Shown: positions 34,074 through 48,570 of the stretch, piece by piece | Position numbering within the stretch: position 1 is the stretch's first letter | Layout: the number at the start of each line of letters is the position of its first letter | Notes under the pieces: model-generated | Databases searched by the model: none | What the model was told of the DNA's origin: nothing | Seen by the model: only the letters and a program-made list of their open reading frames with translations | Position numbers and translations under genes: made by a program | Assembly (NCBI GenBank): GCA_903951425.1 | Contig: CAJBBX010000110.1 | Coordinates: forward strand, 1 to 64,000 | From: an uncultured Chthonomonas sp. | GTDB lineage: Bacteria; Armatimonadota; Chthonomonadetes; Chthonomonadales; CAJBBX01 | Length of the DNA stretch: 64,000 nucleotides | Direction of reading: 5' to 3'

Positions 34074-34361
34074 CGTGGAGAACCTCGCGGGAATGGACGC
34101 CTGAGCCCGGCGGCAGCACAGCCACAGGCCCGCGGTAGGCGCCGACTGCACCCCCTCAGGATACTCCATGCGATGCGCTCCATGCTGGGACCAGGGGCTT
34201 GGGATGGGCCGCATCGGCGGTCTGACTCCCGCGCCGCGGTCCGCCACGTTTGCTTGATTGCCCGTTAGCGCCGTCTGGGTCGAAGGGATAGCATCCTCCT
34301 GCGGCGAAACTTAATGCACCGGCGTCTGGCCGGCCACTGCTCCCGCTGCCCGGAGGTCCGC

Positions 34362-35138
34362 ATGCTGACTGTTGTCCCTGATCCAGCGGTCGCCTGCGGG
34401 TTCGTCAATGAGCCCGTGGGCACGCATACGAGCCGGACCATCATGGTCCCGGAACTGCGCATGCTGCTGGCTGCCGTCGCCTCAACGGCCGAGTACCCCA
34501 CCATCCGGGCGGCTGTCGTCGATGACAACGTCTGCGGCAAGGCGACGGTATCCGGGCGACGAGAGCTGTTCCGCCGGTTGTCGGAGCTCTATTCGTTCCG
34601 GAGCGACGCGGCCATCTATCGGGCCTTCCGACTGCTTTGGAACACCGATGCACCGGACGCCCCACTCCTGGCGATGCTGCTCGCTTGCGCCCGTGATCCG
34701 CTGCTCCGCTCCACAGCGCCCATCGTCCTGGACGCCGCTCCGGGCGACCACCTCACGCCGCACGAGTTGGCCGATGTAGTGGAGGCCGCCTTTCCCTTCC
34801 GCTACAGCCCCATCATTCGCAGCAGCGCCGGTAGGCATACGATCGCGTCATGGGCCCAGTCCGGGCATCTCCGGGGTCGCGCGACCAAGATACGGGCATG
34901 TGCCGAGGCAGGCCCGGCTTCGACGGCGTTCGCCCTCTACCTGGGCTACCTTTGCGGCAGCCGAGGCATCGGGCTCTACTCAACGCTTTGGGCGCGCATC
35001 CTCGACGCCGAGCCCGCTTCCATCGACCGTCACGCCTTCGCCGCCGCCCAGCACGGCTGGCTGGACTATCGGAGGATAGACGACGTGGTCGACCTCGGCT
35101 TCGGCTACCTCGATGCCGCATGCAGGAGCGCCCGCTGA
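34362..35138 (+). CDS. brxA: BREX protein BrxA (DUF1819)
   Basis: First gene of a BREX phage-defence operon. The 258-residue soluble helical protein belongs by sequence character to DUF1819: RTIMVPELRMLLAAVAS, DDNVCGKATVSGRRELFRRL, LLACARDPLLRSTAPIVLDA, SSAGRHTIASWAQSGHLRGR and FALYLGYLCGSRG. BrxA proteins bind DNA and are part of the core system, with an unresolved mechanism. ATG 34362 follows CGGAGG by six bases and is preferred to the in-frame ATG at 34314. The stop overlaps the brxB start by one base (TGATG). The 288 bp between this gene and metG must hold the promoter; no consensus elements stand out and no brxR-type regulator is present. Confidence 0.85.
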   Translation: MLTVVPDPAVACGFVNEPVGTHTSRTIMVPELRMLLAAVASTAEYPTIRAAVVDDNVCGKATVSGRRELFRRLSELYSFRSDAAIYRAFRLLWNTDAPDAPLLAMLLACARDPLLRSTAPIVLDAAPGDHLTPHELADVVEAAFPFRYSPIIRSSAGRHTIASWAQSGHLRGRATKIRACAEAGPASTAFALYLGYLCGSRGIGLYSTLWARILDAEPASIDRHAFAAAQHGWLDYRRIDDVVDLGFGYLDAACRSAR

Positions 35139-35686
35139 TGGCAGGAATCGAGAAGCTGGTGACCGCCTACGAGCGCTTCGTGAAGCTCCCATGGGATCCC
35201 AACGTGGCAGGCGCCCAACGCGTCTGGTTCGCGGTCTACGCCCCTTCGGAGGAGCGCCGCCTCAGGGCGCGCCTTGCCGCCTTTGAGGCCGCAACGCTGA
35301 GTTCCGGGCATGCTTGGAAGCAACTCGACATGACGGCCGAGTTCGCGGCCTGGCTGGCGGCCCAGGAGTACCGCGAAGCCTACTTCGACGCGCCGGAGGA
35401 CCTGGAGCCTGCCCTCGACTACTTCCGTCAGAGCCTTGCCGCAACTGTAACAGCGGCACTCACCGCGCCCGGAGTGACGGACACTACGGTTGTGGCCATC
35501 AGCGGCATCGCCTCGCTCTTTGGGGTGGCTCGGGTGTCGCAGCTCATCGACGACGTCTCCGGCGACATCCGGGGCAGGCTTCTGGTGATGTTCCCCGGCG
35601 AGCGCGACGGCTCCCGCTATCGGCTTCTGGATGCCCGTGACGGCTGGAACTACCACGCCATACCGATCACCGCGGAGGAGGGCTGA
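35138..35686 (+). CDS. brxB: BREX protein BrxB (DUF1788)
   Basis: A 182-residue soluble protein of the DUF1788 family, a core BREX component needed for defence and thought to bridge other BREX proteins. Family-like features: an N-terminal AYERFVKLPWD segment, RLRARLAAFEAAT, and a C-terminal half with LFGVARVSQLIDDV followed by LVMFPGERDGSRYRLL and WNYHAIPI. The length is normal. Translation is coupled to brxA by a one-base overlap; the stop is 4 nt from the presumed TTG of brxC. Confidence 0.85.
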   Translation: MAGIEKLVTAYERFVKLPWDPNVAGAQRVWFAVYAPSEERRLRARLAAFEAATLSSGHAWKQLDMTAEFAAWLAAQEYREAYFDAPEDLEPALDYFRQSLAATVTAALTAPGVTDTTVVAISGIASLFGVARVSQLIDDVSGDIRGRLLVMFPGERDGSRYRLLDARDGWNYHAIPITAEEG

Positions 35687-35690
35687 CCCC

Positions 35691-38600
35691 TTGCAGACCA
35701 GCAGCAGCGTGTTCGTCGTGGACCCCAAGACGGCGTCGATCCCCAACGACGGTGTCGCCAAGGTGCTGGAGCCAAGCACTCCCGAGGAGTGGGCGGTTCT
35801 GAGGCACGAGGTACGGACCTTCGTCTGCGATGGCGAGTACCGCGCGGGTCTTGAGCGCATTCTGGCCACGTTCATGCGCGGCCTGGGCGAACCCATCCAG
35901 CCCGCGGTCTGGGTCTCCGGCTTCTACGGCAGCGGCAAGAGCCACATGGTCCGCATTCTGGAGATCCTGTGGCGCGACGTGAAGTTCCAGGATGGAGCAT
36001 CGGCAAGGGGCCTCGCGACGCTCACTCCGGAGATTCACGACTACCTGCGCGAACTCCAGACGGCCGGCAACCGAGAGGGCGGCGTCTGGTCCGCCGGCGG
36101 CTCGTTGGCCGCCTGCCCCGACAGCGTCCGGATGGCGCTGATGGGCATCGTGTTACGCGGGGCCGGCCTGCCTGCGCGGTACCAGCAGGCGCGGTTCGTT
36201 CTCTGGCTGAAGTCCGAAGGCATGTTCGATGCGGTGCAGGCGGGAGTTGCGGCTGCCGGCAGGGACTGGAATTACGAGCTGACGAACATGCTGGTATCGC
36301 CGGTGCTCTCCAAGTCCCTTCTGGTTGCCTATCCCGGCTTCGCCGAGAGCGAGTCCGCCACCCGGCAGCTCCTGAAGGCGCAGTTCCCGTCGGTCGATGA
36401 CGTGTCGGACGACGAGATGCTGGCCACCCTCGAGCAGGTTCTGCACCTGGTCTCCAACAAGCCCGGCAAGCTGCCCCTTGCCCTGATCGTGCTGGATGAG
36501 CTTCAGCAGTACATCGCCGAGAACACCGACCGGATGCTTCGGGTCCAGAATGCGGTCGAATCCCTGTCCACCAAGTTCGGCAGCCGGGTGCTCATTGTGG
36601 CGACCGGTCAGTCGGCGCTTCAGGGCGGATCGGCGCTCTCCAAGCTGCAAGGCAGGTTCACCGTCAACGTGTCGCTTTCCGACAAGGATGTGGAGACCGT
36701 CGTTCGGCAGGTAGTGCTCCGCAAGAAGGCCGATTCGCATGCCCCGCTGACGGACATGCTGGCGAGATGCAGCGGGGAGATCGACCGCCATCTTGCCGGC
36801 ACCAAGCTCGGACCATCGGCGGCCGATACGACGGAGGTGAAGGCAGCCGACTATCCGCTTCTGCCGGTCCGGCGCCGATTCTGGGAGCGGGTCCTCCGGG
36901 CTGTCGATCGCGCCGGCACTGCCGGACAACTCCGCACCCAGCTCAAGGTCGTGCATGAAGCGGTTCGTGAGATCGCCGATCGGCCGCTGGGCACCGTGGT
37001 TGCCGCGGACCGCATCTACGGCCAGCTCGCTCCGACGCTGCTCCAGAACGCCGTCCTCCTGCATGAAGTGGACGAGACGATCAAGAAACAGGACGACGGG
37101 TCGCCCGATGGCCTGCTCCGCATGCGGCTCTGCTCGCTCATCTACCTGATCGCGCAGCTTCCCAGAGAGAGCGGCGCCGATACAGGGGTCAGGGCGACAG
37201 CCGACACGCTGGCCGATCTGTTGGTCGAGGACCTTGTATCGGGCGGCGCAGCGCTTCGGGGCCAGATACCGACCCTTCTTTCGGCCATGGTGACAAGCGG
37301 CGAACTGATGGTCGTGGAGGGGGAGTACCGGCTTCAGACCCGCGAGAGCGCCGAATGGGAGAAGGAGTACAGGAGCCGGCTGACGGCCTACAGCAGCGAT
37401 GCGGTGCGCCTCGCCACCGACCGGTCCGCCGCGCTGAAAGTCGCCTGTGCGGCATTGCTGAAGGACGTGACCCTTAGCCATGGCGCCGCCAAGATCATGC
37501 GCAAGGTCGAGCTTGCGTTTGCCTCCGAGGCGCCGAGCACCGATGGCGGTGTCGTGCCGGTCTGGATCCGCGACGAATGGTCCGTGCCCGAGAAGACCGT
37601 GCGCGAAGATGCTCAGGCAGCAGGCTCCGAGGGTCCGATCGTCTATGTGCATCTACCGCGCCGCTCCTCCGACGATCTGGCGAAGACGTTGGCGGGTCTG
37701 GCGGCAGCGACCGAGACCCTTGGCCGCCCCACTGCGCCCACATCGGAGGCGCTTGAGGCCAGGCAGGGCATGACGACACGTAAGGCCACGCTGCAGGCGC
37801 AGTTGCAGACGCTGGTGGCCGCGGTGCTGAAGGATGCGCGCGTATGGCAGGGCGGCGGCGCCGAAGTGGTCGCCGGCGACCTGCGTGCGTCCGTCGCCGA
37901 GGCCATGAAGGCATCGCTCCAGCGCCTCTATCCCGACTTCAAGGTCGGGGATGCGGAGGGATGGGACACCGTCAAGAAGCGGGTTCGGGATGGCAGCGGT
38001 GATGCCCTGGGAGCGATTGGATACAAGGGGGATGCCAAGGACGAGCCTGCCTGTCAGCGCGTCCTGACCTATCTTGCCAATGCGTCGCGCAAGGGGCTCG
38101 ACATTCGGAAACGGTTCACCGGCCCGCCCTTCGGCTGGGGCCAGGACGCAGCCGACGGCGCCATCCTGGCGCTTGCCGCAGCCGGCTGCGTCAGGGCCAC
38201 CTGGAACGGCTCGCCGATCAAGGCGCCGGATATCGACCAGGGCAAGCTGGGTCAGGTCGAGTTCCGCTCTGAGACCACCACGGTGACGGCAACCGAGCGC
38301 ATGGCCGTCCGGGCCATGATCATCAAGGCGAAGGTGCCGTGCAAGCCCGGCGACGAGGCCGCTGTACTGGCCTCCTTCGTCGACGCACTCAAGACGCTGG
38401 CCGTCAAGGCAGGCGGCCAGGCGCCGCTGCCCCCTCGGCCATCGACGAAGGAACTGGACGATCTCGCCGCGCTGGCGGGCAACGACGCCGTAGCATCTGC
38501 CTACTCTCAGATCGATGCACTCGACCAAATGCGTAATGCATGGGGTGCGGCAGCGAAACTGGCCGACGAGCGCATGCCGAGGTGGACGTTGCTCCAGCGC

Positions 38601-39146
38601 CTCCTCAAGCATGCCGCGGGCCTGGAGGCGGCCGCCGCGGCGACGTCTCAGGCCGATGCCATCTTGGCGCACCGGTCTCTGCTGGTCGAGCCGGATCCCG
38701 TCCAACCGGTCTGCACTGCGCTGGTTGACGCCCTCCTCGCCGCGGTAAATGCGGCGAAGGATGCCTACGCTTCGGCCTACTGCAGCCGGATGGATGCCCT
38801 TGAAGCCGACGCCACATGGACTGCGCTTAGCAAGGCGGAACAGGCAGAGATCCTCGCGCAGCATGACCTGGGTCCCGGTAAGCCGTTGGACATCAGCACA
38901 GAGGCCAGGCTGCTCGAAGCGTTGGATGCGACGGGCCTGGCCGCATGGTCCAGCAGAACGGCCGCCCTGCCCGAACGGTTCAGCGGCGCACTGCTGGAGG
39001 CGGCCCAGCGGATCGAGCCCGAGGCTGTCATGGTGAAGCCTCCCGGCGCCAAGCTCAGCACTGTCGACGACGTGGACAAGTACCTCGGTGAGCTGCGACA
39101 AGCGATCCTCGAGCAGATCGAAGCCGGCCATCCGGTGGTGATCTAA
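35691..39146 (+). CDS. brxC: BREX ATPase BrxC
   Basis: The large P-loop ATPase of BREX, about 1151 residues, a normal length. Walker A is GFYGSGKSH at residues 77-85 (K83) after PAVWVSG; the Walker B-like LIVLDELQQYI has D269 and E270. GSRVLIVATGQSAL and LQGRFTVNVSLSDKDVETVV follow, as in other BrxC proteins. The C-terminal two thirds is helical, with coiled stretches and no recognised enzymatic domain. The start is not certain: no ATG lies near the brxB stop, and TTG 35691 is the first usable codon, with GTG 35709 as an alternative. BrxC is required for BREX methylation and defence. Confidence 0.88.
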   Translation: MQTSSSVFVVDPKTASIPNDGVAKVLEPSTPEEWAVLRHEVRTFVCDGEYRAGLERILATFMRGLGEPIQPAVWVSGFYGSGKSHMVRILEILWRDVKFQDGASARGLATLTPEIHDYLRELQTAGNREGGVWSAGGSLAACPDSVRMALMGIVLRGAGLPARYQQARFVLWLKSEGMFDAVQAGVAAAGRDWNYELTNMLVSPVLSKSLLVAYPGFAESESATRQLLKAQFPSVDDVSDDEMLATLEQVLHLVSNKPGKLPLALIVLDELQQYIAENTDRMLRVQNAVESLSTKFGSRVLIVATGQSALQGGSALSKLQGRFTVNVSLSDKDVETVVRQVVLRKKADSHAPLTDMLARCSGEIDRHLAGTKLGPSAADTTEVKAADYPLLPVRRRFWERVLRAVDRAGTAGQLRTQLKVVHEAVREIADRPLGTVVAADRIYGQLAPTLLQNAVLLHEVDETIKKQDDGSPDGLLRMRLCSLIYLIAQLPRESGADTGVRATADTLADLLVEDLVSGGAALRGQIPTLLSAMVTSGELMVVEGEYRLQTRESAEWEKEYRSRLTAYSSDAVRLATDRSAALKVACAALLKDVTLSHGAAKIMRKVELAFASEAPSTDGGVVPVWIRDEWSVPEKTVREDAQAAGSEGPIVYVHLPRRSSDDLAKTLAGLAAATETLGRPTAPTSEALEARQGMTTRKATLQAQLQTLVAAVLKDARVWQGGGAEVVAGDLRASVAEAMKASLQRLYPDFKVGDAEGWDTVKKRVRDGSGDALGAIGYKGDAKDEPACQRVLTYLANASRKGLDIRKRFTGPPFGWGQDAADGAILALAAAGCVRATWNGSPIKAPDIDQGKLGQVEFRSETTTVTATERMAVRAMIIKAKVPCKPGDEAAVLASFVDALKTLAVKAGGQAPLPPRPSTKELDDLAALAGNDAVASAYSQIDALDQMRNAWGAAAKLADERMPRWTLLQRLLKHAAGLEAAAAATSQADAILAHRSLLVEPDPVQPVCTALVDALLAAVNAAKDAYASAYCSRMDALEADATWTALSKAEQAEILAQHDLGPGKPLDISTEARLLEALDATGLAAWSSRTAALPERFSGALLEAAQRIEPEAVMVKPPGAKLSTVDDVDKYLGELRQAILEQIEAGHPVVI

Positions 39147-39150
39147 GCCC

Positions 39151-42100
39151 ATGGCCACCCTCCACCCAACGCAGCGCACCCTACTGGAGCGCACCATCAC
39201 TACCGCTCGGATCGAGTCGGAGAAGGCCGCTCGGGCCGCGTTGGTCACCCTGGCCGTAGACCAGGATGAGCCGTTCGCAGCGCATGGCGCCGATGAGCGG
39301 GCGCTGCGCAACCGGCTTCGCGTCGAGAGGCGCCGCGTTGGCGGGCTCGATGCGCTGGTGCAGGAGTGCGCCTACGCCCAGTGGCACCGGATGCTCTTCG
39401 CCCGCTTCCTGGCCGAGAACCACCTGCTGATCCACCCGAAGTTCGGCATCCCGGTGACGCTTGAGGAGTGCGCTGAGCTTGCCGACGACGAAGGCGAACC
39501 GGATGGCTGGATGGTGGCGGCCAAGTTCGCGGCGCTCATGCTCCCGGGCATCTTCTGCGTGGCCGACCCCGTCATGCAGCTCCGGCTTACTCCGGAGGGA
39601 CGCGCGGCGCTGGAAGATCTGCTTGCCGGTATTCCGGATGTGGTCTTCGGCGCCGAGGACTCGCTGGGCTGGGTCTACCAGTACTGGCAGGCGCAGCGCA
39701 AGCAGGAGGTGAACAAGAGCGGCGCCAAGGTCGGCGGCGACAACATTGCGCCGGTCACCCAGCTCTTTACCGAGCCCTACATGGTCCGATTCCTGCTGCA
39801 CAACACGTTGGGAGCCTGGTGGGCGTCCCGCCACCCCGGTCACCCGCTGCTGGCCGACATGGAGTATCTGCGGACCAAGGACGACGGCTCGCCGGCAGCA
39901 GGCGGCTTCGAGGGCTGGCCGGCCACGGCGGCTGAGCTGTGCGTTCTCGACCCCTGCTGCGGTTCGGGCCACTTCCTGGTTGCCGCCTTCGAGCTCCTGG
40001 TACGCATGCGGATGGCCGAAGAGGGGCTGACCGAGGCACAAGCCGCCGAGGCCGTCCTCCGCGATAACCTGGTGGGTTTGGAGCTGGACCCCCGCTGCAC
40101 CCAGATCGCCGCGTTCAACCTGGCGCTGGCCGCCTGGAAGTCCGGCGGAGCCCGGCAGCTGCCGCTGCCTTCCGTGGCCTGCGTCGGTCTCAAAGTAGGC
40201 GGCCGCCTGCACGAGTGGGTCCGCCTTGCCGACGGCGACCATGAGATGGAAGCAACCCTCCGCCGCCTCTACCACCTCTTCGAACAGGCGCCCGATCTGG
40301 GCAGCCTACTGGACCCGGCCAGGGCGACAGTCGAGGATGGGCTCTTCGGTCAAGACTGGGCGGATGTCGCGCCGCTGGTGGAGAAGGCGCTGGCCGACAC
40401 CCCAGCCGACGACCCCGCAGCCGCCCTCTTCGGAATGGCAGCCCAAGGTGCAGCACGCGGCGCCGAGCTACTTGCCCGACGCTATCACCTCGTGGTCACC
40501 AACGTGCCCTACCTGGCGCGGGGCAAGCAAGGTGACGCGCTCAGGACCTTCATCGATACCTTCCACAGCGACGGCAAGGCGGATCTGGCAACTGCATTTG
40601 TGGATCGCTGCCTGCGCTACTGCGCACCGGGAGGTGCAGTTGCGCTTGTGACGCCTCAGAACTGGCTGTTCCTGGGCTCCTACAGGGCCCTGCGGCAGCG
40701 CCTGCTAAGCGAGTGCTGTTGGAATGCTGTAGCAGGTCTGGGCATGGCGGCGTTCAGCGACATGTACTGGTGGGCGTTCAACACGAGCCTTGTCGTTATC
40801 ACTGCAAGTAGACCCTGTGCGGAGCACTCGATCGCACTGCTGGACGCCGCGTCACCACGGGTAATTGCTGAAAAGTCCGTGATCCTGCAGACGAGTCACG
40901 TCGGGTTCTCAAGCCAGGCCGATCAGAGCGAGAACCCTGATGCGCGCATCACCCTTGTGGCCGGCAGGGCAACTTCAATGCTAACCGCGTATGCTGCCGG
41001 TCTGGTCGGCATACAGACTGCCGACTACCCAATGTTCGGCCGTTGCTTCTGGGAGTTCTGCATTGCGAGTAGCGACTGGGAGTACCAACTCAGCACCGTT
41101 CAGCGTACGTGTCCATCCGGGGGGCGCGAACACCTGATCTGGTGGCAAGGATGGAACGGCGAGCTAGCGCGGAGACATGCGAACGGAAACGCATACGTGA
41201 GGGGACGAGCAGCATGGAGGAAACCGGGCGTTGCCGTGAGTTCGATGGGCTCGTTGCCCGTTGCACTGCATACAGGTGAGTTGTTCGATAACAACGTTGC
41301 CGTTGTCCTTCCCCACGACCCCGCCCACTTGCCCGCAATCTGGTGCTTCTGCTCCTCGCCCGAGTACGCCGAGGCGGTGCGGCGGATCGACCAGAAGCTG
41401 AACGTCACCAACGCCACGCTGGTGAAGGTGCCCTTCGACCTGGAGCGGTGGCAGAAGGTTGCCGCCGAGCGCTACCCCCACGGCCTGCCCGAGCCAGACT
41501 CCGACGACCCGACCCAATGGCTCTTCCATGGCTCCGTAGCTCGCTCCAGAGAGCCGCTGCAGGTGGCGGTGGCGCGCCTTCTGGGCTTCCGTTGGCCCCG
41601 CCAGCAAGGTCAGACGGTCTCCGGCGCCGGACCGGTGCCCGACGACGGACTGGGTGCCCACTCCGACGCCGACGGCGTGGTCTGCCTGCCTGCGGTTGGC
41701 GGCGAGATGCCCGCCGCCGATAGGCTTCGCGCGCTGCTTGCGACTGCCTACGGGGCAGATTGGTCGCAGGCCTCACAGGAAGCGCTGCTGGCGCAAGCCG
41801 AGTATGCAGGCAAGTCGCTGGAGGAGTGGCTGCGCGACGGCTTCTTCGCCCAGCATGCCCGCCTCTTCCACAACCGGCCCTTCATCTGGCACATCTGGGA
41901 CGGCGCCAAGGGTGGCTTCTCGGCGCTGGTGAACTACCACAAGCTGGACCGGCGCCTGTTGGAACGGCTCACGTACACCTACCTGGGCTCCTGGATCACG
42001 GCGCAGAAGCAGGCCGACGAACAGGGCCAAGCCGGCGCCAACGCCCTCCATGTCGCCGCCCTCAAGCTGCAGGAGAAGCTCAAGGCCATTCTGGAAGGCG

Positions 42101-42363
42101 AACCACCCTACGACATCTACGTCCGATGGAAGCCCCTGCACCAACAGCCCATCGGCTGGGAGCCGGACCTCAACGACGGCGTCCGCATGAACATCCGCCC
42201 ATTCGTAACGGCCGGCATCCTCCGCAGCAAGTTCACCATCAACTGGAACAAGGACCGGGGCACCGACCCCGAACCCAACTGCTCAGGAACAACGGAGAGG
42301 CTGAACGACCTGCACTTCACGCGGGAGGAGAAGGAGAGGGCGAGAAGGATCGCACCCGGATAG
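39151..42363 (+). CDS. pglX: BREX adenine-specific DNA methyltransferase PglX
   Basis: The 1070-residue methyltransferase that marks host DNA at a non-palindromic site so BREX spares it. An N-terminal helical part (to about 200) leads to SAM motif I, D267-P-C-C-G-S-G-H-F, the catalytic motif IV N451-V-P-Y (usually N-P-P-Y) in LVVTNVPYLARGKQ, and ALVTPQNWLFLGSYRALR. About residues 510-730 (40690-41340) are the expected target-recognition region; 40801-41340 counts to about 60% G+C while blocks on either side count 72-75%. The C-terminal part (FIWHIWDGAKGGFSALVNYH, LNDGVRMNIRPF) is conserved again. It begins 4 nt after brxC. It is shorter than many type 1 PglX proteins, and the motif IV variant is noted. 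Confidence 0.93.
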   Translation: MATLHPTQRTLLERTITTARIESEKAARAALVTLAVDQDEPFAAHGADERALRNRLRVERRRVGGLDALVQECAYAQWHRMLFARFLAENHLLIHPKFGIPVTLEECAELADDEGEPDGWMVAAKFAALMLPGIFCVADPVMQLRLTPEGRAALEDLLAGIPDVVFGAEDSLGWVYQYWQAQRKQEVNKSGAKVGGDNIAPVTQLFTEPYMVRFLLHNTLGAWWASRHPGHPLLADMEYLRTKDDGSPAAGGFEGWPATAAELCVLDPCCGSGHFLVAAFELLVRMRMAEEGLTEAQAAEAVLRDNLVGLELDPRCTQIAAFNLALAAWKSGGARQLPLPSVACVGLKVGGRLHEWVRLADGDHEMEATLRRLYHLFEQAPDLGSLLDPARATVEDGLFGQDWADVAPLVEKALADTPADDPAAALFGMAAQGAARGAELLARRYHLVVTNVPYLARGKQGDALRTFIDTFHSDGKADLATAFVDRCLRYCAPGGAVALVTPQNWLFLGSYRALRQRLLSECCWNAVAGLGMAAFSDMYWWAFNTSLVVITASRPCAEHSIALLDAASPRVIAEKSVILQTSHVGFSSQADQSENPDARITLVAGRATSMLTAYAAGLVGIQTADYPMFGRCFWEFCIASSDWEYQLSTVQRTCPSGGREHLIWWQGWNGELARRHANGNAYVRGRAAWRKPGVAVSSMGSLPVALHTGELFDNNVAVVLPHDPAHLPAIWCFCSSPEYAEAVRRIDQKLNVTNATLVKVPFDLERWQKVAAERYPHGLPEPDSDDPTQWLFHGSVARSREPLQVAVARLLGFRWPRQQGQTVSGAGPVPDDGLGAHSDADGVVCLPAVGGEMPAADRLRALLATAYGADWSQASQEALLAQAEYAGKSLEEWLRDGFFAQHARLFHNRPFIWHIWDGAKGGFSALVNYHKLDRRLLERLTYTYLGSWITAQKQADEQGQAGANALHVAALKLQEKLKAILEGEPPYDIYVRWKPLHQQPIGWEPDLNDGVRMNIRPFVTAGILRSKFTINWNKDRGTDPEPNCSGTTERLNDLHFTREEKERARRIAPG

Positions 42364-42432
42364 GTGCTGGGAGAGGCCGAACGTGCCCGCACGGCCGAAG
42401 GAGCGACAGGGCGCTAGGCCAAGGAGACCAAC

Positions 42433-43461
42433 ATGAGTTTCGATTACCACTCAAGGCTCACACTGCGCGACTTCACAACGTTCCACGACGCCACTCTGGA
42501 GTTCGTGCCGGGGCTCAACGTGATCATTGGCGAGAACGGGTCCGGGAAGACGCACATCCTGAAGGCACTGTATGCATGGCAGACGGCACGTCACCTTGCC
42601 GACAACGGGCGGAGCGCCGAGTACGCCCGCGTCTTCGCCGACACCTACGGCGCCAGATCGGCTGCGGAGCTTCAACGGGCGAGCCCGAAGATTGCGGAGG
42701 TCTCTGGGAGGTTCGGGAACAGCGAATGGTCGGTTGCGTTCCAGGCGGGCAACGCAACCGACAACGGTGTGCGGCCGACCGTAACGAGGCCGGTCTTCAT
42801 ACCCGCGATCGATATGATGGCCCACGCCCGTAACATGACGGGGATACTGCGGGACTACGCCGATTTCGACAGGACGTGCTTCGACTTCGTGTCCATGGTC
42901 ACAGCGCAGCCGGCTCGAACGGACGAGGATCCGCCTGGGCCAGACATAGGCTCGATGAGGGCGCTCCTGCCCGGCGCAGTCGATTGGGACGACGAAGAGC
43001 AGCGCTTTCATGTTGATGAAGACGGACGACGCATGCCATTCGCGCTGGCTGCGGAAGGGGTGCGCAAGGTCGCCGCCTTGCAGCGCCTTGTAGACGGCGG
43101 CTGGCTCCGCCCAGGAGGCGTGCTGCTGTGGGACGAGCCTGAGGCCAGCGTCAATCCGGTGTGGATCGACGAGATCGTGGAGGCTCTCGTCGCGCTCGTA
43201 CAGCACGGCGTGCAGGTGTTTGTCGCCACACACAACTACGTCGTACTGAAGCAGACGGACCTTACACTCAGGCGCCGTAGAGCCCGCGGCGAACCAGACA
43301 CTCCCGTTCGGTTCGTGGCACTTCAGAGGCAGCGCAAGGTCAGCCGAGCCACATGGAGCGACCACTTCAGCGATCTCGACCCGAACGCGATTCTGGATCA
43401 GTACGACCAGATGCTTGACGAGGACCTGCGTCTCGCCGACCTGTCGGACGGGGAACAATGA
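42433..43461 (+). CDS. AAA (ABC/OLD-like) ATPase inserted in the BREX operon
   Basis: A 342-residue soluble ATPase with Walker A G33-E-N-G-S-G-K39-T after an ABC-type N-terminus (LTLRDFTTFHDATLEFVPGL), Walker B LLWDEPEAS with D234-E235, and a switch histidine in VFVATHNYVVL. This is the layout of the AAA_15/AAA_21 group found in many nuclease-coupled defence pairs. It has no TOPRIM domain, so it is not a full OLD nuclease. It starts 69 nt after pglX with AAGGAG six bases before the ATG, and its last codon overlaps the following nuclease-like gene (ATGA). Sampled blocks are about 58% G+C, below the flanking BREX genes. It is not a core BREX gene. Its most likely role is to control the nuclease. 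Confidence 0.8.
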   Translation: MSFDYHSRLTLRDFTTFHDATLEFVPGLNVIIGENGSGKTHILKALYAWQTARHLADNGRSAEYARVFADTYGARSAAELQRASPKIAEVSGRFGNSEWSVAFQAGNATDNGVRPTVTRPVFIPAIDMMAHARNMTGILRDYADFDRTCFDFVSMVTAQPARTDEDPPGPDIGSMRALLPGAVDWDDEEQRFHVDEDGRRMPFALAAEGVRKVAALQRLVDGGWLRPGGVLLWDEPEASVNPVWIDEIVEALVALVQHGVQVFVATHNYVVLKQTDLTLRRRRARGEPDTPVRFVALQRQRKVSRATWSDHFSDLDPNAILDQYDQMLDEDLRLADLSDGEQ

Positions 43462-43979
43462 GCGTGTACAAGGAGAGTGGGTTCACATTCGACTTCGGCG
43501 CCGCCTCGGCCATTGCTGTTCACGACAAGGCCGACCCGCATGACGGTAACACCTTCTGGCCAGGGGTGGACTTCCGGGTCGCTGATGGAGGCCGCGAAGT
43601 CTGGATCGAAGTGAAAAGCTGGAGCTACAGGCGAATTCTGGATCGTGTTGAACGGCGCGGCGCCATGAAGGACTACGAAGCCAAGTTGGCACAGAAGACG
43701 ACGGAGGAGTTCCGCGACGAGATCGTGGCGAAGTTCCTTGGAACATCCTGCTACCTCGGCTGGTCCGGGCTCGGCATCCCACCGAGGGTGCTGTACGTCG
43801 TGTTTCTGGAGCCACCGGATCGCGGCAGTCGTGCACTACTTGGGCCGTTCCGGGACCGTCTCCGCGATGAGTTCAAGAACGCCCAGGCCCGGCCCTGGGG
43901 GAAGCGGATCGGCCACTGCGTCGTTGATCTGCAGGGCTTCCAGCAGAAGCTCCCGGGCTACACAGTGACCCCGGCATGA
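43458..43979 (+). CDS. Small PD-(D/E)XK nuclease-like protein, partner of the ATPase
   Basis: A 173-residue protein with a PD-(D/E)XK-type core: D38 in GVDFRVADGG, then E51-V52-K53 in VWIEVKSW, with hydrophobic strands on both sides as the fold requires. A later RVLYVVFLEPPD strand and a C-terminal IGHCVVDLQGFQQKLPG could complete it. The start codon overlaps the ATPase stop (ATGA), so the two are translationally coupled and probably act together. Sampled blocks are about 58-60% G+C. It is followed 24 nt later by pglZ. I do not recognise a named family; restriction-type cleavage of invading DNA is an inference from the motif and context. HNH and TOPRIM motifs are absent. Confidence 0.65.
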   Translation: MSVYKESGFTFDFGAASAIAVHDKADPHDGNTFWPGVDFRVADGGREVWIEVKSWSYRRILDRVERRGAMKDYEAKLAQKTTEEFRDEIVAKFLGTSCYLGWSGLGIPPRVLYVVFLEPPDRGSRALLGPFRDRLRDEFKNAQARPWGKRIGHCVVDLQGFQQKLPGYTVTPA

Positions 43980-44003
43980 CGTGCAGGGTATGGCTGGAAC
44001 ACC

Positions 44004-46337
44004 ATGCTAGATGACACCACTGTGACTGTACTGGGCGCGCTCGGCGCCGCGCTGCGTGCGGCAGCCGCCTACAACAAGCACGACCAAGCCGCACCGGTTG
44101 CAGTTCTCTGGCCCGACAAAGACCGGCACTGGGAGCCCCTCATTCCGAGGCTGCGGGAGGCCCTGGCGGTCTTGACCCTTGGCCCGTACGATCCGGCGAC
44201 CCGAACCGGGCCGGCGATCTGGATTCGCTGCATGGTCGAACGGGCACTGCCTGAGGCGGATTGGCCCGCCGATGCTGTGCCGGTCGTCTACCTGCCGGGT
44301 GTCAGCAAGCAGGAGCTGCGGGCCGTCGAGGAGTGCCCAAGGCTGCTCCAGCCGCTTGCCGAACTGCAGTACCGGGGTGTGCTCTTTACCCACAAGAACG
44401 GTCGTGACTGGACGATACCGGGATTCATTCAGGCCCCAGATGCAGGCATTGGCGCAGCAGTTGCCGAGGACACAGCCACAAAGGATGCCGCTCGGAATGC
44501 GCTGCTGAAGCTGGCGGACACCACTGTGGACGCCTTGCGGGCCCAAGCGCCTTTGAACGCGGCATTCTTCAATGACCTGCTGAACCCGGACCCGGTGCTC
44601 CAGCTCTTACGCTGGATGGATGCGCCGGAAGCGCAGCGCACCGCCGCCACTCCGGAGGAGTGGGCCGCCTTTCGGGCAACCTGCCAGAGCCAGTTTGGGC
44701 TCGACCCGGATAAGGATGGCGCATTGACGGCAGCACAGCGTTTGGGGGACGGCGAGGGTTCCTGGTCCGTCGTGTGGAGCCGCTTTGCCGAAGCCCCAAC
44801 CAAGTACAAGGGTCTTCCCGACCTCCTTCGCGCGGCGAAGCCGGCAAAGCCGGATAGCCTGTTCTACAAGCGTGAGTGCTGGCCCCAGGAGACTGAGCAG
44901 GCCGAAGCGGAGCTCCGCGACGAACTCAATGGCCTGGCGGTGAAGACCGGCCCGCAAGCTGCGGCTGCCATCCAGGCGCTGGAGTCGCATCACGCGGTGC
45001 GCCGGCAGTGGGTCTGGCATATACTCGGGTTGTCACCACTCGCCGGCGCCATGCCCGCCCTCGCTCGGATGGCACAGGCGGTTCAGACACCGTTGGCGGG
45101 ATCAACGCCGACCGCGATCGCCGAGGCCTATGCGGCCGGCGGCTGGCGGGCGGATGCGGCCATGCTGGAGTGCCTCGGAGCGGTTTCGGCAGCCGAAGAT
45201 GCTACGGCGGTCAAGGGTGTGGTCCGTGCGCTCTATGCGCCGTGGCTGTTGGCAGCAGCGGCGGCGTTCCAGAACGCAGTGAAGTCAGCGCCGCTGCCGA
45301 CCGCACATCCGGCCGCCGCACCGGGGCAGCCAAAGCCCGGCCGCTGCATCCTCTTTGCCGATGGCTTGCGGTTGGACACCGCCAAGCTGCTCGAGCAGGA
45401 GCTGGTCTCCCACGGCGTCGACGTGACGGCCAAGTGGCAGTTCGGCGCACAACCCGGCGTAACCGATACCGGCAAGCCGGCGGTCTCCCCTGTCGCCGGC
45501 GCCATCCGGGCAGGCGAAGGTCTCGGCACCAAGGTGGCGTCCGACGATGTGAAGGTGACGGCTGACATCCTTCGCCGTGAGCTGGCAGCGGCAGGCTGGC
45601 AGGTTCTGGCCGAAGACGAAGCCGGCGACCCGAACGGATCGGCGTGGACGGAGTGTGGCCGGCTCGACTCCTGTGGGCACGCGGAAGGCTGGCGGCTGGC
45701 AATGCGGCTCGGCGAGGTGATCGACGAGCTTGTCGAGCGGATCCGATTCCTGCTGAAGGCGGGCTGGAGCGAGGTCCGGGTAGTCACCGACCACGGTTGG
45801 CTCCTTCTCCCCAGCGGATTACCGAAGGCCGAACTGGCCGAGCACCTGACGGAAGTGATGAAAGGCCGCTGTGCCCGCCTCAAGCCCGTGACCGCGCCGC
45901 CGCACCAGTCGGCGCCCTGGTACTGGGATCCTGCGGTCACGGTCTCTGCGGCTCCGGGCATCAGCTGCTATACGGCAGGCAAGGAGTATGAACACGGCGG
46001 CCTGAGCCCACAAGAGTGCGTCCTGCCAGTGCTGACTGTTCGGCAGCCCGATGCCCTGAAGCAACCGGCGGCGGTCAGTGAGGCCAAATGGGTCGGCTTG
46101 CGGTGCCGGATTCTGGCGACCGGCGACAGTAAGGGCGTATCGGCGGCACTGCGCACCAAGCCGGCTGATCCGGCGACGTCACTGTCGGGTCAACCCGTCC
46201 CCTTGGACGCGAACGGCAAGGCGGGACTGTTGGTCGAGGACGACTCCGCGGAGGGGTCGGCGGCGGTGATCGTTCTGCTCGGCCCGTCCGGTCAGGTCAT
46301 CTCACAGAAGAGCACGATTGTTGGGGAGGACGGCTAA
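44004..46337 (+). CDS. pglZ: BREX phosphatase-like protein PglZ
   Basis: A 777-residue alkaline-phosphatase-superfamily protein that is a signature component of BREX. The N-terminal third (AAPVAVLWPDKDRHWEPLIP, LTLGPYDPATRTGPAIWIRC) resembles the shorter, type B-like PglZ of BREX type 1. The PglZ domain follows: CILFADGLRLDTAKLL with metal-type D453, FGAQPGVTDTGKPAVSPVAG, and VRVVTDHGWLLLPSG with D596-H597. Its stop overlaps the brxL start (TAATG). Blocks here sample about 77% G+C, in contrast to the cassette just before it. It acts with PglX; its enzymatic substrate is not established. Confidence 0.9.
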   Translation: MLDDTTVTVLGALGAALRAAAAYNKHDQAAPVAVLWPDKDRHWEPLIPRLREALAVLTLGPYDPATRTGPAIWIRCMVERALPEADWPADAVPVVYLPGVSKQELRAVEECPRLLQPLAELQYRGVLFTHKNGRDWTIPGFIQAPDAGIGAAVAEDTATKDAARNALLKLADTTVDALRAQAPLNAAFFNDLLNPDPVLQLLRWMDAPEAQRTAATPEEWAAFRATCQSQFGLDPDKDGALTAAQRLGDGEGSWSVVWSRFAEAPTKYKGLPDLLRAAKPAKPDSLFYKRECWPQETEQAEAELRDELNGLAVKTGPQAAAAIQALESHHAVRRQWVWHILGLSPLAGAMPALARMAQAVQTPLAGSTPTAIAEAYAAGGWRADAAMLECLGAVSAAEDATAVKGVVRALYAPWLLAAAAAFQNAVKSAPLPTAHPAAAPGQPKPGRCILFADGLRLDTAKLLEQELVSHGVDVTAKWQFGAQPGVTDTGKPAVSPVAGAIRAGEGLGTKVASDDVKVTADILRRELAAAGWQVLAEDEAGDPNGSAWTECGRLDSCGHAEGWRLAMRLGEVIDELVERIRFLLKAGWSEVRVVTDHGWLLLPSGLPKAELAEHLTEVMKGRCARLKPVTAPPHQSAPWYWDPAVTVSAAPGISCYTAGKEYEHGGLSPQECVLPVLTVRQPDALKQPAAVSEAKWVGLRCRILATGDSKGVSAALRTKPADPATSLSGQPVPLDANGKAGLLVEDDSAEGSAAVIVLLGPSGQVISQKSTIVGEDG

Positions 46338-48382
46338 TGGAACTCGATGTCCTGGATCGACTGGCTGCCGAGGCCTTCGACGGCTACATCGTTCGGAAGG
46401 ACCTGGTCCGCCGCTTTAAGGGACAGTATCCGGTCCCGACCTACGTCGGCGAGTTCCTGCTTGGCCGCTACTGCGCCAGCACCGACGAGGAGGAGATCGC
46501 CGAGGGGCTCAACATCGTTGACCGGCAGATGAGCGAGCGCACCGTTCGGGCCGGCGAAGAGGAGCTGTTCAAGGCCAACGCCCGAGAGCGGGGCACCGTC
46601 AAGATCATCGACATCATCACGGCCCGGCTCGACCCCGAAACCGACTCCTATGTGGCGACGCTTCCGAGCCTCAGGCTCAACCTGGTGCGCATCGATCCGG
46701 ACATGGTCAACAACAACCAGCGGATGCTCACTGGTGGCTTCTACGCCGAGGTGGAGCTGGAGTATGACGCCGCCATCGCTCAGGAGAAGAAGGGCCGACC
46801 GTTTGGGGTCAGTTCGCTGCGGCCCATCCAGCTCTCCAAACGCGGCGCCCTGGACGACCTGGCGACAAGCCGCGCAGCCTTCACCACCGAACAGTGGAAG
46901 CAGTTCCTGCTGCGCAGCGTCGGACTCGAACCGACAGAGCTCACGCCGCGCGCCCAGGACGTGCTGCTGGCCCGCATGGTGCCCTTTGTGGAGCGGAACT
47001 ACAACGCCGTAGAGCTTGGGCCCCGGGGCACCGGCAAGAGCCACCTGTACCAGCAAGTGAGCCCCTACTCCCACCTGGTCAGCGGCGGCAAGGCCACCGT
47101 CGCCCGGATGTTTGTCAACAACGCCAACGGCCAGCGCGGGTTGGTCTGCCAGTACGACGTGGTCTGCTTCGATGAGGTCTCCGGCGTCTCCTTCGACCAG
47201 AAGGACGGCGTCAACATCATGAAGGGCTACATGGAGAGCGGCGAGTTCAGCCGAGGGCGCGAGAGCATCCGGGCCAATGGCGGAATCGTCATGGTCGGCA
47301 ACTTCGACGTCGACGTGGAGCACCAGCAGCGGATCGGCCACCTCTTCGGACCTATGCCGCCGGAGATGCGCGACGACACCGCGCTGATGGACCGGATCCA
47401 TGCGTACCTGCCCGGTTGGGACGTGCCGAAGATGGAGAGCCGGCTGTTCACCGACCACTTCGGGCTGGTGAGCGACTTCCTGTCGGAGTGCTGGACCCGG
47501 CTGCGCGGCGAGACCCGTTTCTCGGCTCTCATGGGCCGTGTGACGTTCGGCAGCGCCCTGAGCGGCCGCGATGCCACAGCCGTCAACAAGACCGTCAGCG
47601 GCCTCCTGAAGCTGCTCTATCCCGATGCCGCCGCGCCGGTCCCCGATGCCGACATGGAGTGGGCGGTCCGGTTGGCGTTGGAGTGCCGCCGCCGGGTCAA
47701 GGAGCAGCAGAAGCGGATCGGCTCCGCCGAGTTCCGCAGCACCCAGTTCTCCTACCGCATGGGTGAGGATGGCGTTGAGACCTTCGTCAGCACACCTGAG
47801 CTGGCCGGCGCCGAGGGCATCGGCGCCGACCCGCTGCCTCCCGGCCATGCCTGGGGAATCAGCCCGGGCGGCGCCGACGAAGCGCCGGGCCTCTATCGGA
47901 TCGAGGCGACCGAGGGACCTGGTTCAGGCATGCGGATCACCAACGTGACCCCTTGCGGCACCTTACGCGAGAGCGTCAACACCGCCTACCAGAACCTGCT
48001 GTCCAGGCGCCGAGAACTGGTCGGCGAGCGCGACCCGCGCCAGCATGAGCTCAACGTCCAGGTTCGCGCCATGGACACCAACAAGAGTGGCGCCTTCCTG
48101 GGCATGGCCGTCCTGCTCGCCTTCGCCGGCGCCCTGCTTGAGCGCAGCCTCAAGGGCGGCCTGATCGTCATCGGCGGCATCTCCGTCGGCGGATCGGTCG
48201 AGCCCATCCACAACGCGGTCCTGCTGGCAGAACAAGCCGTGGAGCGCGGCGCCCAAACGGCCCTATTCCCGGTAGCCGCCCGCCGCCAACTCAACGACCT
48301 GAGCGACGAGATGGCCGCCAAGATCAACATCGTGTATTACACCGACGCCAGGGATGCGCTGGTGAAGGCGTTGTGTGACTGA
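46337..48382 (+). CDS. brxL: BREX Lon-like AAA+ protein BrxL
   Basis: A 681-residue AAA+ protein, the last gene of the BREX operon and the hallmark of type 1 systems. Walker A is GPRGTGKSH with K234, Walker B is VVCFDEVSG with D279-E280, and the highly conserved VGNFDVDVEHQQRIGHLFGP and LPGWDVPKM blocks are present. The C-terminal 130 residues resemble a Lon protease domain (KSGAFLGMAVLLAFAGA, IVIGGISVGGSVEPIHNAVL). The lysine of the Lon dyad, expected in the GGLKEK-like segment, reads as His-Asn here, so proteolysis is doubtful by eye. BrxL assembles into DNA-binding rings and is needed for phage exclusion. No defence gene follows. Confidence 0.93.
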   Translation: MELDVLDRLAAEAFDGYIVRKDLVRRFKGQYPVPTYVGEFLLGRYCASTDEEEIAEGLNIVDRQMSERTVRAGEEELFKANARERGTVKIIDIITARLDPETDSYVATLPSLRLNLVRIDPDMVNNNQRMLTGGFYAEVELEYDAAIAQEKKGRPFGVSSLRPIQLSKRGALDDLATSRAAFTTEQWKQFLLRSVGLEPTELTPRAQDVLLARMVPFVERNYNAVELGPRGTGKSHLYQQVSPYSHLVSGGKATVARMFVNNANGQRGLVCQYDVVCFDEVSGVSFDQKDGVNIMKGYMESGEFSRGRESIRANGGIVMVGNFDVDVEHQQRIGHLFGPMPPEMRDDTALMDRIHAYLPGWDVPKMESRLFTDHFGLVSDFLSECWTRLRGETRFSALMGRVTFGSALSGRDATAVNKTVSGLLKLLYPDAAAPVPDADMEWAVRLALECRRRVKEQQKRIGSAEFRSTQFSYRMGEDGVETFVSTPELAGAEGIGADPLPPGHAWGISPGGADEAPGLYRIEATEGPGSGMRITNVTPCGTLRESVNTAYQNLLSRRRELVGERDPRQHELNVQVRAMDTNKSGAFLGMAVLLAFAGALLERSLKGGLIVIGGISVGGSVEPIHNAVLLAEQAVERGAQTALFPVAARRQLNDLSDEMAAKINIVYYTDARDALVKALCD

Positions 48383-48402
48383 CACCGGGTGCACGAGGTG
48401 TC
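48381..48402 (+). terminator. Weak hairpin after brxL
   Basis: GACACC (48381-48386), overlapping the brxL stop codon, is complementary to GGTGTC (48397-48402) with a 10-nt loop. There is no T-run. The remaining 168 bp to the convergent FG-GAP gene hold no recognisable feature. Confidence 0.3.
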
Positions 48403-48570
48403 GATACCAGGCTACATGTGGCTGTTCCACTGCAGTACACGCACGGCTCTGACCATGAGTGCAAGGTTTAGCGAAGCGGCAAACGGCCCACCGACGGCGC
48501 CGAGAGTGACATGGCGCCCCTTGCGCCCATCGCTCGGGATCGGTTACGGGCGAGAGTCTACCACGCGCGC

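Follow-up and report, generated by a model that had tools for sequence, protein, structure and literature searches.

A HEC-02 candidate ATPase-nuclease cassette within a complete type 1 BREX operon of an Armatimonadota genome

A complete type 1 BREX operon in an Armatimonadota genome carries two coupled genes. Each matches, along its entire length, its counterpart in the PADLOC two-gene candidate HEC-02, and the gene order is the same. We read this pair, with a probability of roughly 65%, as a self-contained candidate anti-phage cassette in which an ATP-dependent sensor would unleash a nuclease on infection, forming a second layer of defense beside BREX. A named candidate is now found in a clean native setting, a type 1 BREX operon with all its core genes. 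The same HEC-02 cassette also occurs on its own and in two or more types of BREX, and sister operons in which the corresponding junction is empty or otherwise filled constitute a natural experiment. The cassette is suited to asking whether defenses layered within a single operon work separately or whether one detects the failure of another. The preprint behind the name HEC is reportedly that of Payne et al. 2024. HEC denotes "Hma-embedded candidates" from a guilt-by-embedding preprint, as cited in passages of PMC12988326 and PMC12255303, and several HECs, HEC-06 among them, are reported there to be antiviral (passages of PMC12988326). Our literature search returned no relevant paper on HEC-02 and no experiment on the HEC-02 family. 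An earlier note on this DNA had described a compact two-gene module of an ATPase and a PD-(D/E)XK nuclease nested in BREX, and profiles, models and operon order agree with that description. Its statement that the pair matched no named system is superseded by the HEC-02 matches, and such pairs in BREX are already described in sections of PMC12839542. The operon spans 34314-48382 of the window, which is the whole 64,000-nucleotide stretch that was analyzed, and profile searches give the order brxA-brxB-brxC-pglX-(pair)-pglZ-brxL with the following features:

34314-35138, + strand: brxA (PADLOC BrxA, 3.7e-70)
35141-35686, + strand: brxB (PADLOC BrxB, 1.3e-67); start set after the brxA stop, longest ORF from 34850
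35631-39146, + strand: brxC (PADLOC BrxC, E=0; NF033441, 703.6 bits); longest ORF, true start may be downstream of the brxB stop
39151-42363, + strand: pglX methyltransferase (PADLOC PglX, E=0)
42364-42432, + strand: spacer between pglX and the cassette, 69 nt, with an AAGGAG-like ribosome site
42433-43461, + strand: ABC/OLD-type ATPase (HEC-02A), 342 aa ORF; predicted sensor/switch subunit
43458-43979, + strand: PD-(D/E)XK nuclease (HEC-02B), 173 aa ORF; predicted effector subunit
44004-46337, + strand: pglZ, BREX-1 type B (NF033450, 837 bits; PADLOC PglZ, 4.9e-276)
46337-48382, + strand: brxL (BrxL_ATPase, 4e-128; PADLOC BrxL)

The ATPase and nuclease ORFs lie between pglX and pglZ and share an ATGA overlap at 43458-43461; the coordinates and overlap given in the earlier note match the sequence, and its cassette start of 42364 is the first base 3' of the pglX stop codon. 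The junctions of the operon measure, in order, 2, -56, 4, 69, -4, 24 and -1 nt, where the value of -56 nt hinges on the choice of ORF start. This list makes the 69-nt spacer the sole large gap in the operon, as had been claimed, and no private promoter, terminator or significant RNA hairpin was found in that spacer. The cassette is also lower in G+C than its host operon (62.9% for the ATPase gene and 62.1% for the nuclease gene, versus 65.8-67.6% for the BREX genes) and falls within the lowest 1.4% of 1550-bp stretches in the 64-kb window. The direction of the contrast noted previously thus stands while its size had been overstated, since the values are 62-63% versus 66-68% and not 58-60% versus 70-77%.

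The loci closest to the window come from Chthonomonas-type MAGs, and the BREX operon is flanked by a methionyl-tRNA synthetase gene (metG) and an FG-GAP repeat gene. In one congener (G002:C103, L135, compared with window positions 34212-48522) the BREX operon is absent and both flanks lie ~120 bp apart on one contig. Within the genus, therefore, operon and cassette together form a variable block. Neither the nuclease nor the window's pglZ was found in the congeners G001 and G002. As separate observations, the first ~160 bp of metG in G002:C103 are unaligned with the window, and the metG homologue of the other congener (G001:C24:31846-33984, L130) has one in-frame TGA within the match.

Assignment of the first protein to the ABC/OLD type is based on its motifs and on an ABC head fold in its predicted structure. 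It has a Walker A motif (GENGSGKT) at residues 33-40, a Walker B with catalytic Glu (DE, 234-235), a switch histidine at His267 and a degenerate ABC signature (AEGxRK, residues 207-212). Profile searches matched it to PADLOC HEC-02A (PDLC04213, 9e-70, residues 7-333 on profile 4-331/337) and to AAA_21 (2.4e-20). The AlphaFold2 model has a mean pLDDT of 92.6 and resembles SMC/Rad50/PtuA heads at Z 18-20.5 in a structure search, which supports a Rad50/SMC/PtuA-like fold for the predicted structure. Residues N29, G33, N35, G38, K39, K44, E208, G209, D234, E235, P236, E237 and H267 are invariant in the 90 rows compared.

The second protein has the motif residues D38, E51-x-K53 and K92, and HEC-02B (PDLC04220, 3.6e-10, residues 1-170 on profile 1-164/172) is the only PADLOC family that it matches. 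It gave no family at a meaningful score in Pfam and NCBIfam and no sequence match among solved structures. Across the related nucleases E51 and K92 are each conserved in 82/82 rows, and K53 in 80/82 (two have R), while D38 is present in 72/82 and replaced by E in the remaining ten. In the AlphaFold2 model (mean pLDDT 93.3) D38 comes just before strand 39-43, while E51 and K53 are within strand 46-54, which is followed by helices that include K92 and by further strands. The D...(D/E)xK arrangement of the PD-(D/E)XK superfamily thus lies on adjacent core strands of the model, and its residues are near-invariant in the 82 rows. The top VIA rows, at Z 5-7, are mostly PD-(D/E)XK enzymes, namely the CARF nucleases Cdn1 and Can2 together with BspD6I, EcoO109I, BstEII and FokI; Z values of this size, at most 7.0, can also arise from non-specific similarity. 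With Foldseek alone the nuclease had no significant match (best E 0.14), and the fold call consequently rests on motif, topology and VIA enrichment together. The predicted structure with its motif conservation supports a PD-(D/E)XK fold, and the model and its VIA neighbors do not point to the absence of this fold, which the earlier note had named as what would overturn its reading. The motif positions listed in that note, Walker A, DE, switch His267, D38 and E51-x-K53, are all exact.

As expected of HEC-02, the genes are neighbors on one strand and overlap by 4 nt, and this exact overlap is also the commonest spacing among related ORFs. A nuclease ORF lies directly 3' of the ATPase ORF, at -77 to +13 nt, in 87/93 related ATPase ORFs, and the linkage is therefore beyond chance. 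The other six (L062, L069, L075, L084, L097 and L106) have no detected adjacent nuclease, and no ATPase-nuclease fusion was found among the 93 ATPase ORFs. A search for mobile carriage of close relatives gave only five plasmid and two phage-record matches, all below 31% identity.

Most copies of the pair stand apart from BREX. Among 91 distinct related loci from genome and viral contigs, which are not independent samples, the pair accompanies BREX of types 1 and 3 in 17, and no BREX was detected in the fetched DNA at the remaining 74. At 40 of these 74 loci there are at least 5 kb on each side, so that absence is informative, and other loci are cut short by contig ends. Additionally, type 1 brxC, the marker for a genome-wide comparison, was not found in any of the genomes of the 11 pair-bearing Armatimonadota relatives, which are the nearest relatives. 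Because of these 74 loci and 11 relatives, we regard the pair as a self-contained cassette and not a BREX subunit. The immediate neighbors of non-BREX copies are mostly ordinary genes, with scattered defense genes nearby (type III restriction, HmaB, Argonaute and type I specificity). On the ATPase tree the nearest relatives of the window pair are non-BREX copies, and the BREX label requires 12 changes, of which well-supported branches force no fewer than 11; thus, the association has been gained or lost many times. The pair is also missing from six Armatimonadota BREX relatives (L034-L039, where the L038 contig starts at pglZ). An invariant or core BREX part is rejected on this ground, in agreement with the cassette reading of the earlier note. 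That note's further proposal, gating by BREX methylation, finds no support in the same counts of loci and closest relatives, and as a general mechanism it is unlikely because non-BREX pairs usually lack a neighboring methyltransferase.

Where the pair does occur in BREX, its placement is recurrent. In type 1 operons it is directly 3' of pglX in the window, L054, L056 and L076, and directly 3' of brxC, before pglX, in L072, L102 and L122-L124; the gene after the pair in L125 is a PglX match. The type 3 copies sit immediately 3' of pglXI in L099, L108, L115 and L120 and 5' of pglXI in L061. The pair precedes pglZ and brxHII in L068 and L114, where the methyltransferase side is not seen, and in the type 1 locus L066 it is outside the BREX core. 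Consequently, every readable in-core copy adjoins a methyltransferase gene. This repeated placement makes functional coupling to BREX a modest possibility. For example, the pair could stay silent while BREX works and fire when a phage protein blocks the methyltransferase complex, much as PARIS, likewise an OLD-ABC protein with a nuclease, is triggered by the anti-restriction protein Ocr (summarized in part of PMC12839542). Repeated embedding in BREX, with nearly all readable copies adjoining the methyltransferase gene, speaks for such a guard. Nevertheless, we think it improbable, as the majority of copies are solitary: no BREX was detected near them or, where the genome was checked, type 1 brxC was not found; guarding BREX specifically therefore cannot be the general function. 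Similarly doubtful is a version in which the pair is more than random cargo and its repeated insertion beside pglX or pglXI in types 1 and 3 reflects a functional link with the condition of the methyltransferase complex, with phage inhibition of BREX triggering the nuclease.

The positions flanking the methyltransferase, and the pglX-pglZ junction in particular, look like a general cargo slot because related operons carry different cargo there. In L035, L036 and L039 pglX and pglZ touch with nothing between them. Around this junction there are DUF5655 and unknown genes in L034 (8779-12308), an AAA_21/PHP protein and a Schlafen-AlbA protein in L102 (14992-19281), and AbiEi/AbiEii and Gp49-like/HI1420-like toxin-antitoxin pairs in L037 (7699-11858). 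The latter occupants bear on the idea that the HEC-02 pair is itself an addiction cassette, its ATPase neutralizing the nuclease and stabilizing the operon with no direct anti-phage role. Two small coupled genes with a patchy distribution, in a region that toxin-antitoxin pairs fill in a related BREX operon, would suit this idea. We nonetheless hold it to be very unlikely, given that the ATP-hydrolysis residues are strictly conserved beyond the needs of sequestration and that a simple sequestration model was ruled out for WonAB (PMC12137116). Several additional features of these loci deserve mention. In L037 (5912-11163) pglX occurs as two ORFs of 596 and 510 aa with AbiEi/AbiEii between them, either a natural split or an interruption. 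The type 3 operons L099 (9989-12768), L114, L115 and L120 have HEC-02 together with a HEC-01A-like ATPase and so hold two candidate modules per operon. L122-L125 are contigs classed as viral whose BREX operons carry the HEC-02 pair 3' of brxC, and L122-L124 have two pglX copies in tandem.

We propose that a HEC-02 module may have inserted 3' of pglX in a type 1 BREX operon and that it is now probably transcribed with that operon. Like SMC/Rad50/PtuA heads, the ATPase would dimerize or form higher oligomers when bound to ATP, and it may keep the PD-(D/E)XK nuclease inactive or properly placed. Upon sensing an infection cue it would release or position the nuclease, which would then cut nucleic acid. 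By analogy with WonAB and Septu, such a sensor ATPase that unleashes a nuclease in infection is the most likely mechanism. The response is probably abortive: damage to the host is more likely than sequence-specific restriction, given that the module lacks its own methyltransferase or specificity subunit and, outside BREX, is usually not adjacent to one. Reading the pair as a restriction module is a less probable alternative. In that case the ATPase would scan or load on phage DNA for the nuclease to cut, complementing BREX in the manner of BrxU, the type IV enzyme of E. fergusonii; phages with modified DNA that evades BREX would be one possible target. PD-(D/E)XK is the classical restriction fold, type II restriction enzymes are among the structural neighbors of the nuclease, the ATPase is similar to the DNA-binding heads of SMC/Rad50, and BrxU is itself a type 1 BREX cargo gene that confers complementary protection (PMC8565348). 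Against this, profiles and models disclosed no DNA-recognition or modification-reading domain in either protein, and WonAB, with the same architecture, does not work by DNA degradation (PMC12137116); we accordingly consider restriction unlikely.

A published analogue speaks for the sensor-nuclease reading. WonAB, from the Vibrio cholerae WASA-1 prophage, consists of an OLD-ABC ATPase and a small PD-(D/E)xK nuclease (PMC12137116). It shares the two-gene architecture of the cassette and, compared by published architecture only, is the closest tested mechanism. Defense by WonAB depends on a catalytic lysine in each protein, and specifically on ATP-site residues of WonA and on K71 of WonB, and proceeds by abortive infection, in which phage DNA entry and the start of replication are allowed and translation is then shut down (PMC12137116). 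The catalytic residues of WonA are K34, E300 and H333, versus K39, E235 and H267 here, and the inserts therefore differ between the two ATPases. PD-T4-4 and "OLD-ABC ATPase + Novel REase" are grouped with WonAB and have the same architecture. Among defense ATPases the nearest in fold is PtuA of Septu/retron PtuAB (residues 1-342 aligned, Z 19-20), and both systems are ATPase-nuclease pairs. However, PtuB is an HNH nuclease while the partner here is PD-(D/E)XK-like, the ATPase has 342 aa versus 456-551 in the matched PtuA proteins, and it scores 48 bits against an NCBIfam PtuA cut-off of 500 bits. Identity with Septu was rejected, as the nuclease is not HNH and its PADLOC match is to HEC-02B only. 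Identity with PARIS (AriAB) was also rejected, as the nuclease has no TOPRIM (AriB) match in Pfam, NCBIfam or PADLOC. BrxU of the E. fergusonii pEFER BREX locus is likewise a non-core nuclease gene in a type 1 BREX operon, located 3' of brxC (PMC8565348), but it is a single GmrSD-family type IV enzyme and not a pair of an ABC ATPase and a PD-(D/E)XK nuclease. Within HEC-02, the nuclease described here is fairly divergent from HEC-02B (38 bits), and while HEC candidates were named for embedding in Hma, the host operon here is type 1 BREX. Sections of a January 2026 BREX survey (Rakesh and Krishnan, PMC12839542) report OLD-type ABC ATPases and PD-(D/E)XK nucleases inside BREX loci, place OLD-ABC pairs with alternative nucleases in 594 taxa, and regard nucleases linked to OLD-ABC proteins in BREX as effectors that serve as a backup and are often suicidal. 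The OLD-ABC and PD-(D/E)XK REase pairs of BREX/BR loci in those sections share both protein classes and setting with the window pair. Consequently, the pair is a known pattern in a published kind of setting and not a new type of system, and it is a good example of that pattern because the family is already named and is found in many bacterial phyla, both inside BREX and apart from it.
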